The translations under genes and the position numbers were made by a program. Source: Bacteroidota bacterium (lineage in GTDB: Bacteria; Bacteroidota; Bacteroidia; NS11-12g; UBA955). Taken from it: a DNA stretch of 64,000 bases. The stretch covers positions 1 through 64,000 of the forward strand of contig JAIYAW010000008.1 of the NCBI GenBank assembly GCA_027488835.1, written 5' to 3'. The notes beneath the pieces were generated by a model. It was not told where the DNA came from. It made no database searches and saw nothing but the letters and a program-made list of their open reading frames with translations. Shown one piece after another: positions 17,414 through 27,842 of this stretch (positions are counted from its first letter, which is position 1; each line of letters begins with the position of its first letter).

Positions 17414-17464
17414 ATTGTTTCGGCTGTTTTGTTTTCATCCGAGACACATCAAGTAATACTTGAT

Positions 17465-17535
17465 CATTTCCCTTCGCAGGCATTATCCTGAGCAGGTTAG
17501 CGGGTATAATCTCAGCACTCTATAGAGGCACCCCG
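17465..17535 (-). promoter_or_regulatory. TPP riboswitch (THI element)
   Basis: On the minus strand the segment has the conserved THI parts in order: CGGGGTGC, a short variable stem, GCTGAGATTATACCC, ACCTGCTCAGGATAATGCC, then GCGAAGGGAA. These are the thiamine-pyrimidine and diphosphate-binding cores. It lies about 50 bases before the receptor start codon. An inverted repeat (ATCAAG, TATT-type spacer, CTTGAT) directly after it could serve in expression switching. Confidence 0.96.
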
Positions 17536-17544
17536 AATGAAATA

Positions 17545-17552
17545 CAAATTTA
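17545..17552 (-). promoter_or_regulatory. Promoter of the TPP riboswitch leader
   Basis: TAAATTTG on the minus strand, with TTG at 17575-17577 and 22 bases between: a full Bacteroidota promoter. It ends 9 bases before the riboswitch 5' end. It lies inside the extended frame of the divergent peptidase, which argues against a peptidase start at 17537. Confidence 0.7.
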
Positions 17553-19948: not shown

Positions 19949-20863
19949 GTGGATTTCCCCCTGAATGCACTGATTGAAAATCGAGAAATTGCCTTGAGCA
20001 ATGCTATTCTTGAACCTTTAATATTTTCTGATTTAGGCAATAACTCCATTTTTATCCAGCGCGATGATTTAATTCATCCTATAGTTTCTGGAAATAAATG
20101 GCGCAAATTAGAAGGTTGGATAAGACATGCCAAAGAAAACAACATTCATACTTTGGTTACTTTTGGTGGTGCTTACAGCAATCATCTAGTTGCAACTGCA
20201 GCTGCTGGTAATTTTTTGGGATTTAAAACCGTTGGCATTTTGCGTGCTGATGAAGAAATAGACAATCATTATTTACAGATTGCAAAATCGTGTGGAATGC
20301 AAATCCGCGGTGTATCACGTGAGCTATACCGTGAAAAAACCGCATTAATGAGTGAATATAGCCAAATGGAAGGCTGTATGGTTATTCCAGAGGGTGGTCA
20401 AGGTGACTTGGCTTTAGAGGGCTTTGAATCCTTGGTTTTGACATGGAAAGATAAAGTTGATGTTGTTTATCATGCTTCTGCAACTGCTACAACCGCTGTT
20501 GGATTGGCAAAGGCTATTAAAAAATTAAATCTAGCTATTCAAATTAAAGCCGTATTGGTTTTGAAAAATTTAAATGCTCAAATTGAATACGCTGAGCAAC
20601 ATGGGGTATACGATATCATTGATTTTATTCCAGATTTTCATTTTGGGGGATATGCAAAGTCTACGCCTGAATTAATTGAATTTCAAAAAGATTTCACAAT
20701 ACAAACCAATATAATGATTGATCCTGTGTATACAGCAAAAGCACTTTTTGCTTTAAAAAATGATAGTGAAAATGGTGTTTTTTTGTCCAATCAAAAGATT
20801 GCATTTTTACATACCGGCGGTATGTTGGGCGGCATGTCTGAAAAGTTTAAGAACGTCCTTTAA
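19949..20863 (+). CDS. PLP-dependent ACC deaminase/D-cysteine desulfhydrase family protein
   Basis: A 304-residue fold-type II PLP enzyme. The Schiff-base lysine is K50 in SGNKWRKLE. FGGAYSNHLVATAAAG forms the substrate/phosphate-binding segment and HTGGMLGG is the C-terminal glycine motif. Family members open 1-aminocyclopropane-1-carboxylate or degrade D-cysteine; sequence alone does not choose. The start is GTG at 19949, 9 bases after the peptidase stop, so the two genes are probably co-transcribed. Its last 4 bases overlap the convergent DUF1573 gene. Confidence 0.88.
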   Translation: MDFPLNALIENREIALSNAILEPLIFSDLGNNSIFIQRDDLIHPIVSGNKWRKLEGWIRHAKENNIHTLVTFGGAYSNHLVATAAAGNFLGFKTVGILRADEEIDNHYLQIAKSCGMQIRGVSRELYREKTALMSEYSQMEGCMVIPEGGQGDLALEGFESLVLTWKDKVDVVYHASATATTAVGLAKAIKKLNLAIQIKAVLVLKNLNAQIEYAEQHGVYDIIDFIPDFHFGGYAKSTPELIEFQKDFTIQTNIMIDPVYTAKALFALKNDSENGVFLSNQKIAFLHTGGMLGGMSEKFKNVL

Positions 20864-21303
20864 TGTTGGTTCATCATGGGATCTACATTTCCTGTTAGAA
20901 TCAAATGGAAATTTTTGCCATTTGACAAACCAACATCTAAATGTTTCTTAAACATACCAAAGGTATTGCTCGTTTTGTATGAAGCGGTAATCCAAGCTGT
21001 ATCGCTTACTTTAATCGGGTATTTGGTATAGTCTGAAGCAGTGCAACTGCATCCGGCCTCTACTTTTGTAATGGTAACGGGTTCTTTGGTTTTATTAATG
21101 AAATAGAACTTAGTAACTGCAGGTGGACCGCTTGGGACATCTTTGAAATCATGAAGGTGCTCATTCCATAGAATGGTATCAATTTGAACGACCATTGGTT
21201 TGGGTTCAATATTAACAGTAATGGCTGTTTTTTTTGTTCCGCAAGCTATGAACATTAAAATTGCAAAAATACTTGATGTTAAAATATTATTTTTATTGAT
21301 CAT
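20860..21303 (-). CDS. DUF1573 lipoprotein (copy 4)
   Basis: A 147-residue predicted lipoprotein (lipobox MFIAC, Cys21) with one Ig/MSP-like DUF1573 domain. It carries the typical FKFxN-type strand (KFYFINKTKEPVTITKVEAGCSCTAS) and a Cys-x-Cys motif. The domain is widespread in Bacteroidota and its biochemical role is not established. It is the last gene of the SIMPL-DUF1573-DUF1573 operon, 3 bases after its neighbour. Confidence 0.85.
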   Translation of the reverse strand: MINKNNILTSSIFAILMFIACGTKKTAITVNIEPKPMVVQIDTILWNEHLHDFKDVPSGPPAVTKFYFINKTKEPVTITKVEAGCSCTASDYTKYPIKVSDTAWITASYKTSNTFGMFKKHLDVGLSNGKNFHLILTGNVDPMMNQH

Positions 21304-21306
21304 AAC

Positions 21307-21774
21307 TTAATTATTCGTAATTCGAATTTGTTTCTTTTGGTATAAAATTGGCTTTTGTCCCGCGCGTATGATATTTTTCACTTTTGTAATGTTTCCCTCA
21401 ATATTCAATTCAAAGCTGGTATCGTCGTAATCAACGATGTTCCTCTTGAAATAGGGTCCAGGGGGAGTGTGTTCCGACATAAAGAATAGGGTGATAGAGT
21501 CAGTTGAATTTGGCGCTATTCCTTTTGAGGGAAATTCATATTGTGTACATTGGCAATCTGGAGCAATTTGTGCAATAAAGACAGTATCCGGTGAAGTATT
21601 TTGGATATAGAATACTGCTTCAATAATATCGCCAAGATTGCAATCTTGTTTGATTTTGTTATTGCCAATTATTTTGAGGGCACCTCTATTTTCGTTGTGT
21701 ATTTCACCTATCAATTGAGCCTTAAGCCCAATTGATGCCATGCATAATCCGATTAACAAAAACAGGGTTTTCAT
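21307..21774 (-). CDS. DUF1573-related exported protein (copy 3)
   Basis: A 155-residue protein with a signal peptide (ending GLKAQ) and a divergent DUF1573-like domain. It keeps the CQC motif in APDCQCTQYEFP and the PNSTDSITLFF strand. The C-terminus carries an extra basic strand (ILYQKKQIRI). It lies 3 bases after the SIMPL gene and 3 bases before copy 4. Function unknown. Confidence 0.8.
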   Translation of the reverse strand: MKTLFLLIGLCMASIGLKAQLIGEIHNENRGALKIIGNNKIKQDCNLGDIIEAVFYIQNTSPDTVFIAQIAPDCQCTQYEFPSKGIAPNSTDSITLFFMSEHTPPGPYFKRNIVDYDDTSFELNIEGNITKVKNIIRAGQKPILYQKKQIRITNN

Positions 21775-21777
21775 ATT

Positions 21778-22530
21778 TTATTTTATTGCAAATTCTAGTT
21801 TCACAGTGATAGACGCTTTTTTGTTACGATCCGAAGTATTGTATACTCCGCCCCATGAAAATTCTTCACTAGAAGTTTTACCTGTAATTTGAAAAACTCC
21901 CATTGTTGCATTTTTTAGTGAACCCAAGGTAGAGTTTCCTTTTTCTGCAATGTTTTTGGCTCTCACAGTTGCATTTTCAGTAGCATTTGAAATTAACGAT
22001 ATTTTCAAATCTTCGAGTTTGGTATAATAATAATTTGGGTGGTTGGAACTGATATTGATTCCTTGCTCCAGTAATTCCGTAATTTCACGGGCAGTTTTTT
22101 CAATGATATCAAGCGATTTTGATTCAATATCGAAGTTTTGGGTAAGTTTATATCCGTCGAAGGTAGAAACTTCAGAATATCCTTCGTTTCCATTGTATTT
22201 GCGTTCCGTCTTTGTTTGTTCCTCAACATTAATTGCACTAAATACAATTTCTGATTCTTTGATTCCTTTTTGAATTAGGTAATTTTTGATAGTTACTTGA
22301 TCTTTTCTCAATGCATCAAACGCTTCTTTTCTGCTCATCGATAAGCTGCTGAAGCTTGCATTCCAAATAACAAGATCAGAAGTAAATTCTTTTTCAGCCA
22401 AACCCGTGGTTGATATGGTTTCAGCAGAAACAAATTTGTATTTATAGGCGTTGCCCAAAACTAATGATGCCAAAACAATTGCCAAGGCAATTAGGGATGT
22501 AGCATATACTGATAATTTTTTTTCTTCCAT
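21778..22530 (-). CDS. SIMPL domain (DUF541) protein
   Basis: A 250-residue protein with an N-terminal membrane segment (about 8-28) and a SIMPL domain facing the periplasm: the ISTTGLAEKEFTSD strand, SRKEAFDALRKDQ helix, GYKLTQNFDIES core and terminal ASITVKLEFAI. Known members include periplasmic proteins linked to oxidative or envelope stress; the mechanism is unclear. It starts the second half of the DUF1573 cluster. A promoter-like TATATTCG (22549-22556) sits directly after the upstream terminator. Confidence 0.87.
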   Translation of the reverse strand: MEEKKLSVYATSLIALAIVLASLVLGNAYKYKFVSAETISTTGLAEKEFTSDLVIWNASFSSLSMSRKEAFDALRKDQVTIKNYLIQKGIKESEIVFSAINVEEQTKTERKYNGNEGYSEVSTFDGYKLTQNFDIESKSLDIIEKTAREITELLEQGINISSNHPNYYYTKLEDLKISLISNATENATVRAKNIAEKGNSTLGSLKNATMGVFQITGKTSSEEFSWGGVYNTSDRNKKASITVKLEFAIK

Positions 22531-22548
22531 GTGATTGTATACTTTATT

Positions 22549-22556
22549 CGAATATA
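22549..22556 (-). promoter_or_regulatory. Variant -7 box for the SIMPL operon
   Basis: TATATTCG on the minus strand, one base from TANNTTTG, lies 19 bases before the SIMPL start. The same octamer precedes rpsT (61121-61128) and the DUF4468-like gene (55639-55646). Confidence 0.45.
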
Positions 22557-22558
22557 AA

Positions 22559-22584
22559 AAAAGGGCCGATAAATCGACCCTTTT
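22559..22584 (-). terminator. Terminator of the first DUF1573 operon
   Basis: A stem of 12 positions with one mismatch (22559-22570 with 22573-22584) is followed on the minus strand by a run of seven T. It separates DUF1573 copies 1-2 from the SIMPL operon. Confidence 0.85.
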
Positions 22585-22598
22585 ATAAAAATTATTTT

Positions 22599-23051
22599 TT
22601 ATTTATTGATAATAATTGGTGATAATGGTTTTTCAGGTTCTTTAACCACATTACCTGAAATTGTTAATGTAACATCGCCGCCATTTCCTTTTACAAAAAT
22701 GTTTTTATTGAATGTTCCCGGGCGTCCATTAGAATTGTATTCTGCCGTAACCACAGCTGACTGGCCTGGTGCAATTGCTTCACGTGGCCATTTAGGAGTG
22801 GTGCAACCACAACTTGCCGTAACATTGCTTAAAACCAAAGGATCAGTTCCTGTATTTGTAAATTTAAAGTCGTAAGTTGCAATCAGGCCTTCGATAACTG
22901 TTCCAAAACTATGTGAAGTAGTTTCGAATTTTATTGCCGCATTGCTTTTTTCTTCAGCTGGTGTTGGTGTTGAACCAATAGCTGGATTGGTTTGTGCCCA
23001 TGTTATGTTAAATAACACTGCCGCTGCAAAAACAAATACTAACTTTTTCAT
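22599..23051 (-). CDS. DUF1573 exported protein (copy 2)
   Basis: A 150-residue protein with a signal peptide (ending ITWAQ), a short Pro/Thr/Ala linker and a canonical DUF1573 domain: SHSFGTVIEG, YDFKFTNTG, SCGCTTPKWP, GRPGTFNKNIFV and LTISGNV. The Cys-Gly-Cys pair is intact. It follows copy 1 by 4 bases and is followed by a terminator. Role unknown; secreted or periplasmic. Confidence 0.9.
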   Translation of the reverse strand: MKKLVFVFAAAVLFNITWAQTNPAIGSTPTPAEEKSNAAIKFETTSHSFGTVIEGLIATYDFKFTNTGTDPLVLSNVTASCGCTTPKWPREAIAPGQSAVVTAEYNSNGRPGTFNKNIFVKGNGGDVTLTISGNVVKEPEKPLSPIIINK

Positions 23052-23055
23052 CCAA

Positions 23056-23478
23056 TTATTTTTTAATTTCGTCGGCAGGAGCAGGAGCAGCTTCAGTTAC
23101 AACGGTTCCGCTAATTATCAAATCAGTGGTACTTCCATTGTCAAACGTAACTTTTACAGATTTGCTAAAGTAACCTGCACGTCCATCTGTTCCATAGCTA
23201 GCTTTAACTTCACCTGATTCGCCCGGCATAACTGGTGTTTTGGTCCAAGTAGGAGTAGTGCAACCGCAAGAAGGGTGTGCATCTGTAATTACCAAAGGAG
23301 CAGTTGTGTTGTTTTTGAATTTGAAAGTGACTTCCGCTGGAGGACCCATTTTGATCGTTCCAAAATCGTGTGATTTTGCACTCCAATTAATTGGATCTTC
23401 AGTTTTAACATCTTTTTGAGCGTAAGTAGTAGTAACAAAGGCTAATGATAAAGCCAAAAGGGTTAACATCTTTTTCAT
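23056..23478 (-). CDS. DUF1573 exported protein (copy 1)
   Basis: A 140-residue protein with a signal peptide (ending TTYAQ) and a DUF1573 domain very similar to copy 2: SHDFGTIKMG, FKFKNNT, SCGCTTPTWT, GRAGYFSKSVKV and LIISGTV. The pair is probably a recent tandem duplication. It is the first gene of the operon, in a 119-base gap after infB; a T-rich near-match to the -7 box (TTTTATTTTTTTGG) lies there. Confidence 0.9.
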   Translation of the reverse strand: MKKMLTLLALSLAFVTTTYAQKDVKTEDPINWSAKSHDFGTIKMGPPAEVTFKFKNNTTAPLVITDAHPSCGCTTPTWTKTPVMPGESGEVKASYGTDGRAGYFSKSVKVTFDNGSTTDLIISGTVVTEAAPAPADEIKK

Positions 23479-23597: not shown

Positions 23598-26468
23598 TTA
23601 TAATTTACGTTTTACTTCTTCTTGTTTATAAACTTCTAAATAATCACCAACTTCAATGTCGTTGAATCTTTCAATTTGCAATCCGCACTCAAATCCTTTA
23701 AGTACTTCTCTTACATCATCTTTGAAACGTTTCAATGACGATAGTTCACCATCGTGCATAACTACACCATCTCTGATAACACGAAGCTTGCTTTTACGTT
23801 CAATTTTTCCATCGGTAACATAAGCTCCAGCAATGGTACCCACTTTTGAAATTTTGAATACATCACGTACTTCAACTGTACCAATGATTTTCTCAATAAC
23901 CTCTGGACTCAACATACCTTCCATTGCAGATTTGATTTCTTCAATAGCTTGGTAAATGATTGAGTATGTTCGAATATCGATTTCTTCGTTTTCAGCAATT
24001 TGACGGGCCTTTGCAGAAGGTCTAACTTGGAATCCTACAATGATAGCATCAGATGCAGAAGCCAACAATACGTCACTTTCTGTAATTTGACCCACACCAC
24101 TGTGGATTACGTTAATGGCAATTTCTTCAGTACTCAACTTCATCAATGAATCAGTAAGTGCTTCAACAGAACCATCCACATCACCTTTAACAATAAGCTT
24201 CAGCTCTTTGAAGTTTCCAACGGCCAAACGACGTCCAATTTCATCAAGTGTAATATGACGTTTGGTACGCATCCCTTGCTCACGAACCAATTGTTGGCGT
24301 TTGTTAGCCAACGATTTTGCATCGCTTTCCTCAGCAAATACAGTCCAAGTATCACCCGCTGTTGGAGGTTCCGAGAATCCTAACAATTTAACCGGTGTTG
24401 ATGGAGGTGCATTGTCGATTTTTATTCCACGTTCGTTGAATAAAGCTCTTACTTTAGCATAATGTGGACCAGCTACAACGTGATCTCCCACGCGAAGTGT
24501 ACCAGTTTGTACCAACATGCTACAAACAATACCCCTACCTTTTTCTTGGGTTGCTTCAACAACTGTTCCTTTTGCTCGGCGTTTAGGATTGGCAGTCAAT
24601 TCCATTAACTCAGCTTCTAAAAGTACTTTTTCAAGAAGTTTGTCAACGTTTAAGCCTTTTTTAGCTGAAATTTCTTGGGCTTGGAATTTACCACCCCAAT
24701 CTTCAACCAATATATTCATTTGCGCTAATTGCTCACGGATACGTTCAGGATTAGCTCCATCTTTATCCATTTTATTGAATGCAAAAACCATTGGAACACC
24801 AGCAGCTTGAGCATGCGCAATTGCTTCTCTAGTTTGTGGCATCACACTATCGTCAGCGGCAATTACAATAATTGCCATGTCGGTAACTTTGGCACCCCTT
24901 GCACGCATTGCTGTAAACGCTTCGTGACCTGGAGTATCTAAGAATGTAATTTTTCTTCCATCTTGTAAAGTTACTTCATAAGCACCAATATGCTGGGTAA
25001 TTCCTCCCGCTTCACCGGCAATTACGTTTTCTTTACGTATATAATCTAACAAAGAAGTTTTACCGTGATCTACGTGACCCATTACTGTAACAATAGGAGC
25101 GCGTGGGCAAATGTCTTCTGGGTTTTCTTTTTCGTCGTCAACTGCTTCTATTTGAGTTTCAGCATCAACAAATTCAATTTCGAAATTAAAGTCATTCGCA
25201 ACCAATTGGATAGTTTCAGCATCTAAACGTTGGTTAATAGAAACCATTAAACCAAGAGAAAAACATTTTGAAATAACCTGTGTAACAGGTACATTCATCA
25301 TAGAGGCAAGTTCATTGGCAGCCAAGAATTCAGTAACTCTAAGGGTTTTGCTATCCTCAATTTTTCTTATTCTTTCTTTTTCTTGTTCTCCTCTACGACG
25401 GTCTTTGTCGTTGGCTTTCTTTTTGAATTTATCACCGCGGCTTTTTCCAGCATTCCCCATTTTACCCATAGTGTTTTTCACATTGCTTTTAACAGCTGAT
25501 TGAGAAACTTCTGTTTTTACTGGAGGTTTTGCTTTTTGGAAAGCAGGTTTAAATTTGTCGTCGGTTTTTATTGTATCCTGAACCGCAACTTTAACTGTGC
25601 CTGGTGTGTCCTTGCGTTTGCGTTTTTTGCGTTCTTCTTTGACATCTTTTTTGGCATCATTAGCCAAACTAGAAACACCTTGTTTAGGTATTTGTAATTG
25701 AATTGTACCGAGAACTCTTGGCCCTGAAAGTGTTTCTCTGCGGGTTACAATTTTCTCAATTTCAATTTCTTCTGTTACTTTGGTTGTTGATTCTACCTTA
25801 GGTTTTTCATCAACTTTCTTTTCATCAACAAAATTTTCTTTAACAGGTTCAACTTTTTCTATTGATTCAACTTTTGCAACAGGTTCAACTTTTTCCTCTT
25901 TTTTAATAGGAGGGGGAGTTTCTTGTTGTTTCGGTTTCTGATTTTCCTGCTGTTTCGGTTTTTGATCGTTATGTTTAGGCTTTTTAGGTTTTTCGTGAAG
26001 TTCGATTTTTCCTAAAATTTTCAAACCACCCAATTGTTCCTCTTTTTTATTCGAAGAATCAGTTGGCGTTTCTTCTGTAATTGCTACAGTTTTTTCTTGA
26101 GTAACTTCTTCAACCTTCGGAAGTTCCACTTTTACTGGTTCTTCTGGTTGAGGAATCACTGGTTCAGCTTTAATAACCGGTGGATTAACAGGTGTAACAA
26201 CTGCTGGCGTTTCATCAACGGCAACTTTCTCTGTTGTAGGTGTTGTGGTCGTAATTTTTACAACCTTCTGATTTTTAAGTTTGTTGGCTTCATCTTTTGC
26301 AGCTTTATCAGCTGAAAATTCTTGAAGACAAGATTGATACATGTCCTCGTTGATTTTTGTAGTAGGACGTGCTTCAACATCGAACCCCTTTTGTTTGAGG
26401 AACTCTGCCAATGCAGTGAAACTTCTATTTAATTCGCCGGCAACTTTTGCTAAACGGTATTCCGCCAT
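23598..26468 (-). CDS. infB: Translation initiation factor IF-2
   Basis: A 956-residue GTPase that places initiator tRNA on the 30S subunit. It has an IF2-N domain (about 1-50), a long Lys/Pro/Glu/Val-rich low-complexity linker (about 60-370), a second IF2-N-like segment, and the G domain from about 460 with [17 protein letters not shown] and NKMDKDG; domains II, III and the tRNA-binding domain follow. The linker makes it larger than compact bacterial forms, as is common in the phylum. It is downstream of rimP and nusA but has its own complete promoter at 26478-26509. Confidence 0.97.
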
Positions 26469-26477
26469 ATTTTAATT

Positions 26478-26509
26478 CAAATTTACTTTTAATATGTTGT
26501 AAATCCCAA
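26478..26509 (-). promoter_or_regulatory. infB promoter
   Basis: On the minus strand TTG (26509-26507), 21 bases, then TAAATTTG (26485-26478), a full TTG/TANNTTTG promoter. The -7 box ends 9 bases before the infB ATG at 26468. The TTG is within the segment complementary to the loop of the hairpin just upstream. Confidence 0.7.
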
Positions 26510-26530
26510 GTTTGTTTTGCTGTTTTAATT

Positions 26531-26578
26531 TAATGCAAGTTAGAAATAGACTTGGGAAGCATTTTCTAACTTGCATTA
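26531..26578 (-). other. 16-bp hairpin in the nusA-infB gap
   Basis: Positions 26531-26546 and 26563-26578 form a perfect 16-bp inverted repeat with a 16-base loop, starting 8 bases after the nusA stop codon. No T-run follows, so it is not a standard intrinsic terminator. On the minus-strand RNA the loop contains UCCCAAGU, complementary over 8 bases to ACUUGGGA at 26511-26504, so an H-type pseudoknot is possible. Confidence 0.75.
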
Positions 26579-26585
26579 TTTGATT

Positions 26586-27842
26586 TTAATCTTCAAATTC
26601 TTGACGAAGAATATTTTGCACAGCAACAATAGTTTCTTCTTCTAATTCAGTTCTCTTCAATAAATCTTCAACTGAACTATTGATTACATCTTTTGCAGAG
26701 TCTAAACCAATGCGTTTGAATTCTTCAATAATCCAAGTATCAATTTCATCTAAGAATTCATCTAAATCAACATCATCTTCACTGGTAACCACATTGTTTA
26801 CTCTGTAAACTTCAATTTGATAACCGGTTAATTTGCTTGCCAATTTGATATTATGACCGCCTCTACCAATTGCCAATGAAACTTGGTCGCTTTCTAAGAA
26901 AACGTTCGCTGTTTCACCATTAATATCCATTCTGCTAATATTTGCAGGCTGTAAAGAGCGTTGAATGTACAATGCATTATTGGTTGTAAAGTTAATTACG
27001 TCAATGTTTTCGTTGCGTAATTCACGAACTATACCATGAATACGAGCACCTTTAACACCCACACAAGCTCCAACAGGATCAATACGATCGTCGTAGCTTT
27101 CTACGGCAACTTTTGCTCTCTCTCCTGGTTCGCGAACAACGTTTTTAATGGTAATTAAACCATCTAAAATTTCAGGAACTTCCAATTCAAACAATCTTTC
27201 TAAGAACTCAGGTGAAGTTCTAGATAAGATAATTTTTGGAGTACCTTTATCCATGTCAACTTCATGAATTACGGCGCGAATGGTATCGCCTTTTTTGTAA
27301 ATGTCACGAGGGATCATCTGTTCTTTCGGTAAAGAAAGTTCATTTCCTTCATCATCTAAAATCATGATTTCACGTTTCCATACATTATAAACCTCACCGG
27401 TAATAATTTCACCTCGTTTATCTTTGTATTTTTTGAAAAGTTCGTCTTTTTCTAGTTCAATAATTCTGCTCATCAGAGCTTGACGTGCATTTAAAACGCT
27501 TCTTCTTCCGAAATCATCTAAGAATACTTGTTGAATACAATCTTCACCCACTGCATAGTCAGGCTCTAATTTTTGTGCTTCACTTACAGCAATGTGTAGG
27601 CTTTCGTCTTCAACTTCTCCTTGTTCAACGATCAAACGCAAATGATACATCTCAATATCACCTGTTTCGGTGTTAATGATAATGTCAAAGTTGGCATCTT
27701 GACCATATTTCTTTTTTAAGATATTTCTAAAAACATCTTCCAAAACACGCATCATTGTTGCGCGGTCAATGTTTTTGAACTCTTTAAATTCGGAGAAACT
27801 CTCCACCAGGTTAATACCGAGATCCTTGGCTTTAGTTTTCAT
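26586..27842 (-). CDS. nusA: Transcription termination/antitermination factor NusA
   Basis: A 418-residue RNA polymerase-binding factor. It has an N-terminal domain (1 to about 125), an S1 domain (about 140-205, GEIITGEVYNVWKREIMIL), and paired KH domains (about 215-350, DPVGACVGVKGARI and LAIGRGGHNIKLASKLTG). An acidic C-terminal tail of about 60 residues is present, without the long AR repeats of E. coli. It starts 1 base after rimP stops, so the two are coupled. Confidence 0.97.
   Translation of the reverse strand: MKTKAKDLGINLVESFSEFKEFKNIDRATMMRVLEDVFRNILKKKYGQDANFDIIINTETGDIEMYHLRLIVEQGEVEDESLHIAVSEAQKLEPDYAVGEDCIQQVFLDDFGRRSVLNARQALMSRIIELEKDELFKKYKDKRGEIITGEVYNVWKREIMILDDEGNELSLPKEQMIPRDIYKKGDTIRAVIHEVDMDKGTPKIILSRTSPEFLERLFELEVPEILDGLITIKNVVREPGERAKVAVESYDDRIDPVGACVGVKGARIHGIVRELRNENIDVINFTTNNALYIQRSLQPANISRMDINGETANVFLESDQVSLAIGRGGHNIKLASKLTGYQIEVYRVNNVVTSEDDVDLDEFLDEIDTWIIEEFKRIGLDSAKDVINSSVEDLLKRTELEEETIVAVQNILRQEFED

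Follow-up and report, generated by a model that had tools for sequence, protein, structure and literature searches.

A candidate mRNA pseudoknot, kept in shape while its letters change, between nusA and infB in Bacteroidota

Pseudoknots located before rpsO and rpmI control translation, acting at initiation, and bS1 is able to bind pseudoknots (PMC10931766). The bL20 operator of the E. coli infC-rpmI-rplT mRNA (PMC10931766) is, like the nusA-infB element considered here, a long-range pseudoknot in a polycistronic translation-factor mRNA, placed upstream of the downstream gene's start and near an internal promoter; however, other genes are involved, and in contrast to the bL20 site, which mimics 23S rRNA, the nusA-infB element has letters that turn over freely. 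The pseudoknots known for rpsO (uS15) in E. coli and in mycobacteria (PMC10931766) are likewise of the H type and lie at or upstream of the translation start (in mycobacteria, upstream of the initiation site), but they carry a conserved U-G/C-G motif and sit in the 5'UTR of the very gene that they regulate, whereas the nusA-infB element is intergenic. Compared with operators of the bL20/uS15 type, no letters are conserved across genera. The E. coli read-through hairpins of aceEF and pflBA, together with RNase III processing in metY-nusA-infB (PMC5371410), offer another likeness, namely a structure that is formed only by upstream transcripts and overlaps a downstream promoter, but those hairpins are long duplexes cut by RNase III, while the present element is a pseudoknot whose stem, in some species, is down to 4-6 bp. 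The E. coli nusA-infB gap also provides infB with its own promoter, P4, besides read-through (PMC6511841), but a pseudoknot is not described there. Rfam 15 returned no family at or above the gathering threshold, and a known Rfam RNA was rejected because only weak matches (eukaryotic microRNA models and the like) were found. No nusA-infB pseudoknot is described in the literature searched. The element is thus apparently an undescribed RNA element, which by analogy may act like known translational pseudoknots while being set in no known operator family.

The element was followed up from a 64,000-nt stretch of the genome of a lake-dwelling member of the Bacteroidota (hereafter the window), in which the nusA-infB gap reads on the minus strand as follows.

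26586-27842, minus strand: nusA, the upstream gene, 418 aa, with stop codon TAA at 26588-26586
26563-26578, minus strand: 5' arm of the 16-bp stem S1, TAATGCAAGTTAGAAA, with letters replaced yet paired in relatives
26547-26562, minus strand: hairpin loop of S1, 16 bases, ATGCTTCCCAAGTCTA, from the sequence
26550-26557, minus strand: 5' strand of helix S2, the loop segment UCCCAAGU (= TCCCAAGT)
26531-26546, minus strand: 3' arm of S1, TTTCTAACTTGCATTA, from the sequence
26512-26530, minus strand: linker L3, 19 nt, A-rich
26504-26511, minus strand: 3' strand of S2, ACUUGGGA (= ACTTGGGA), including the TTG of the infB -33 element
26478-26509, minus strand: putative infB promoter, TTG-N21-TAAATTTG (motif and -7 position from PMC6847099, PMC9723704)
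23598-26468, minus strand: infB, the downstream gene (IF-2, 956 aa), with ATG at 26468

The 16-bp hairpin and its loop complement to 26511-26504, on which the earlier note was built, are correct in sequence and coordinates: seven bases separate the nusA stop from the 5' arm of S1, all 16 of its pairs are Watson-Crick, and TCCCAAGT (26557-26550) and ACTTGGGA (26511-26504) are exact reverse complements. The 151-nt fold around the hairpin has z = -3.7, and the 19-nt L3 would be long enough to bridge S1. The segment with the hairpin is present as a single copy in the genome, which rules out a repeat element or MITE. Elsewhere in the window, a tmRNA gene and a TPP riboswitch were noted at 111-480 and 17452-17545 (minus strand), and downstream of infB (20860-23478, minus strand) lies a series of small secreted proteins in which a CGCTTP / CSCT-type motif is repeated and which by their look we take to resemble DUF1573 proteins.

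Taken singly, the window observation is not significant, because about one hairpin with a stem of 10 or more and a 7-nt complement to its loop no further than 140 nt is expected per dinucleotide-shuffled 64-kb window. Across a sample of stretches totalling 1.84 Mb with the window included (~74% of the genome), one of 481 promoter-like sites, that of infB, has a comparable hairpin at a stem of at least 9; the other ~480 sites scanned have none, and looser hairpin settings give counts at chance level. A general promoter-coupled mechanism in this genome was rejected on these counts.

Besides this uniqueness among the promoter-like sites, the evidence that carries the case is comparative. We collected nusA-infB gaps from genomes of the same genus and of the same family, plus named contigs, mostly freshwater Bacteroidota metagenome assemblies (gaps are designated L, genera g and families f), with g1, g5, g7, g8, g10 and g12 as the core genera. 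Of 40 distinct core gaps, 36 have the hairpin and loop pairing despite changed letters, and across these genera the stem, the loop and the 3' partner are all altered while pairing is retained. In the window's genus the stem is wholly replaced (TAATGCAAGTTAGAAA in L003 vs AATGATGCTTACAAACTG in L006), and loop CCCAAG and downstream CTTGGG are unchanged. The S2 strands elsewhere are as follows.

L037: CCAAAG/CTTTGG
L018: TATCGTGA/TTGCGATA
L022: CAAATCCC/GGGATTTG
L044: TGAATCCC/GGGATTTA
L020: GGCAATGC/GCATTGCC
L021: GCAATACA/TGTATTGC
L024: GCAATGCC/GGCATTGC
L046: GGCAGTGTC/GGCATTGCC

Loop pairing is weak and not clear in g1 gaps L010 and L011, and g4 gaps L016 and L017 have a different arrangement without clear loop pairing. 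In these two g4 gaps, a complement to the infB -33 region was seen directly 3' of the stem, not in the loop; L016 has TTGGGAT twice, once within the loop and once at the promoter, which permits alternative pairings.

In a swap control, the pairing of loops with their own targets was better than with the targets of lineages that have a different S2 core. An automated search of all hairpin loops against shuffled targets gave a Fisher p = 1.6e-12 for 20 representatives, a combined value that overstates independence because ancestry is shared, and the same search gave p = 0.99 for 12 outgroup gaps. Within genus g5, both partners have changed in 7 of 12 S1 pairs, which 0 of 500 shuffles reproduced. 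Allowing G.U lengthens S2 internally in seven loci (L012, L018, L019, L043, L044, L046 and L048), for example from 4 to 7 bp or from 4 to 12 bp, whereas allowing A.C adds bases at helix ends only and internal A.C mismatches are absent. Internal G.U without internal A.C points to the sense RNA, which reads through from nusA to infB, as the molecule that folds. Both helices covary, S1 in g5 and S2 via several unrelated cores, and the comparison has the loop pairing a downstream strand with permissive loop lengths. The H-type pseudoknot that the earlier note had proposed for read-through RNA is therefore supported by pairing kept across relatives, and the comparison it had suggested as a check yielded both conservation and covariation, not their absence. 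Altogether, these sequence comparisons strongly support a real nusA-infB pseudoknot, with selected pairing in sense RNA and letters free to change.

An unrestricted search recovered smaller versions in additional genera and likewise in two more families of the class, some of them promoterless. In g9, L032 has ATTTCCTT/AAGGAGAT and L065 has TCCTCTT/AAGAGGG; in g3, one gap (L105, identical with L309) combines a 15-bp stem with CTTTCCCC/GGGGAGAG. These g9 and g3 versions lie 17-18 nt upstream of the ATG without a TAnnTTTG promoter. Family f40 provides textbook compact forms, 14-15 nt upstream of the ATG and likewise without a TAnnTTTG promoter.

f40 form 1: GGUG-ACCCAUC-CACC...AUGGG
f40 form 2: GGGG-CUCCAUC-CCCC...GAUGGA
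f40 form 3: GGCG-AUCCCGA-CGCC...CGGGA

Some f12 loci carry UUCAUG-UUGAAUAUC-CAUGAA...GAUAUUC, with stem variants AACAUG/CAUGUU (L111, L244) and ATTGG/CCAAT (L095); here the 3' strand is nearly invariant, support comes mainly from stem replacement and G.U changes, and several loci are singly no better than shuffles. The nusA tree had at first suggested that the element arose once, in the core genera, an idea that was dropped with the discovery of the g9, g3, f40 and f12 versions. In the class-wide sample, most other families have short gaps without the element. Isolated long loop-downstream complementarities before infB were also seen in other families (L143, L122, L284 and L287; for example TATTTGCGC/GCGCAAATA in L143), for which repeats or chance are possible.

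The geometry is regular and sterically possible, with S1 of 4-18 bp, L1 of 0-5, S2 of 6-9 bp, L2 of 0-3 and L3 of 19-81 nt across relatives; in many of them a longer L3, containing a second hairpin, replaces the 19-nt linker. S1 is just 4-6 bp in L010, L012, L014, L018 and f40. Five gaps (L020, L021, L024, L046 and L050) have an extra hairpin immediately 3' of the nusA stop, and the same five have a small putative ORF (ATGAAAAA..., 24-30 codons) that overlaps the element. With the promoter present, the end of S2 lies 28-36 nt from the AUG (a gap of 27-36 nt); in promoterless versions the distance is 13-18 nt. Its placement thus follows the infB start, and the sharing of bases with the -33 box looks secondary.

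The infB promoter claimed earlier finds support as a sequence motif: the TTG (26509-26507) and TAAATTTG (26485-26478) are 21 nt apart and match the Bacteroidota -33/-7 pattern well, and the sigma-A arrangement (-33 TTG, -7 TAnnTTTG, 19-21 nt spacing) recurs as a putative promoter in the window and its relatives. The -7 box of the window lies 9 nt upstream of the infB ATG (26468), with transcription predicted to start at ~26473 and leave a 5-nt leader. In core genera the -7 G lies 8-12 nt upstream of the ATG; with this G placed at -5 (PMC6847099, PMC9723704), the infB leader would be just 4-8 nt. Such short leaders are rare in Bacteroidota, and leaderless mRNAs make up 5.5% in Flavobacterium psychrophilum. 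The earlier note probably put the weight in the wrong place by stressing complementarity to the promoter, since loops pair downstream in g9, g3 and f40 without such a promoter, and for the same reason the overlap of S2 with the promoter looks incidental. The claim that the hairpin is not an ordinary terminator holds, as a T-run is absent 3' of it (AATTAAAA, 2 T in the 8 nt after S1); most core species have 0-4 T in these 8 nt, and L043/L045 have 6, within TTGTTTTA. An intrinsic terminator was rejected, with no U-run directly after S1. Ordinary U-run terminators stand before infB in near relatives g2 (L026, L027, L051) and g14 (L028), and a U-run terminator follows nusA in g13 (L031, L052-L059).

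The function that we favour, and hold to be evenly balanced between right and wrong, is that an H-type pseudoknot in the dicistronic nusA-infB mRNA controls infB translation. S1 would be the hairpin after the nusA stop and S2 its loop paired with the segment ahead of infB, so that the pseudoknot would act as a folded cis element adjoining the 30S landing zone of infB, possibly as a docking site for the ribosome or bS1, or as an operator. The separate predicted promoter would yield a nearly leaderless infB mRNA without the pseudoknot. We infer translational control because the element adjoins the landing zone, because shape and not letters is conserved, and because the rpsO and rpmI pseudoknots act on initiation and bS1 binds pseudoknots. 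Across species, no consistent sequestering or freeing of the initiation region by the pseudoknot is seen, and no simple on/off switch is visible. A two-state switch hiding the infB start was rejected, the alternative -33/-7 hairpin being found in g1 and g5 and absent elsewhere.

The main rival, which we consider rather unlikely, is a barrier or processing element that would stop 3'-5' exonucleases, Rho, or ribosomes that slide on after termination, or would mark read-through RNA for cleavage, leaving the nusA and infB mRNAs separated or insulated. A mechanical barrier would predict the conservation of structure alone that is observed, the element takes the place of the U-run terminator of g2 and g14, and in E. 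coli, read-through hairpins with a downstream promoter inside them are cleaved by RNase III, so that the cut RNA mimics mRNA made from the promoter (PMC5371410). Yet a plain stable hairpin would do for most of these roles, while here a 6-9 bp loop-downstream helix is kept at a narrow distance from the AUG, and S1 helices of 4-6 bp lack the length that RNase III or a strong barrier would require. An operator sensing a ligand or protein (e.g. NusA, IF-2 or a ribosomal protein), with feedback like that of the L20 or S15 operators, would suit the location within the nusA-infB operon, the nusA autoregulation known in E. coli (PMC6511841) and the frequency of pseudoknots among r-protein operators (PMC10931766); it is improbable, as stem and loop, in contrast to most ligand or r-protein sites, keep no letters in common from genus to genus, and an Rfam match is lacking. 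Quite improbable is a transcriptional role, in which the loop of nascent nusA RNA would pair the non-template strand at infB -33 or the inverted sequence would serve as a DNA operator. The 3' strand in core genera does always overlap the promoter TTG while the hairpin distance varies from 19 to 81 nt, and the G.U polarity is also compatible with RNA pairing to the same-sense DNA strand, but the -33 DNA is double-stranded, a DNA operator fits poorly with changes to G.U but not A.C and with total sequence turnover, and either role is unlikely because the pairing is kept in the promoterless g9, g3 and f40 versions. That hairpin and complementarity both arose by chance, as the one such structure expected in each shuffled window would allow, is very improbable indeed, since several lineages retain the pairing through compensating changes and the comparison contradicts chance.

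Translation in Bacteroidota is initiated without Shine-Dalgarno pairing, and to our knowledge the control of core translation factors in this phylum is poorly known. Extending the translational reading, we tentatively suggest, as possible though somewhat unlikely, that a topology-only mRNA pseudoknot, recurrent before infB in several Bacteroidota lineages, tunes how much IF-2 is made from the nusA-infB mRNA, in bacteria whose leaders lack Shine-Dalgarno sequences, beside a near-leaderless infB transcript whose translation IF-2 may stimulate. IF-2 can stimulate the translation of leaderless mRNAs in vitro, with exceptions (PMC9031893); that IF-2 feeds back in this way by means of the near-leaderless infB mRNA is speculation. 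If true, a shape-only pseudoknot held at a set position ahead of infB would offer a control element for IF-2 that can be tested directly, and its natural variants, with their many sequences, make compensatory-mutation tests simple to design.
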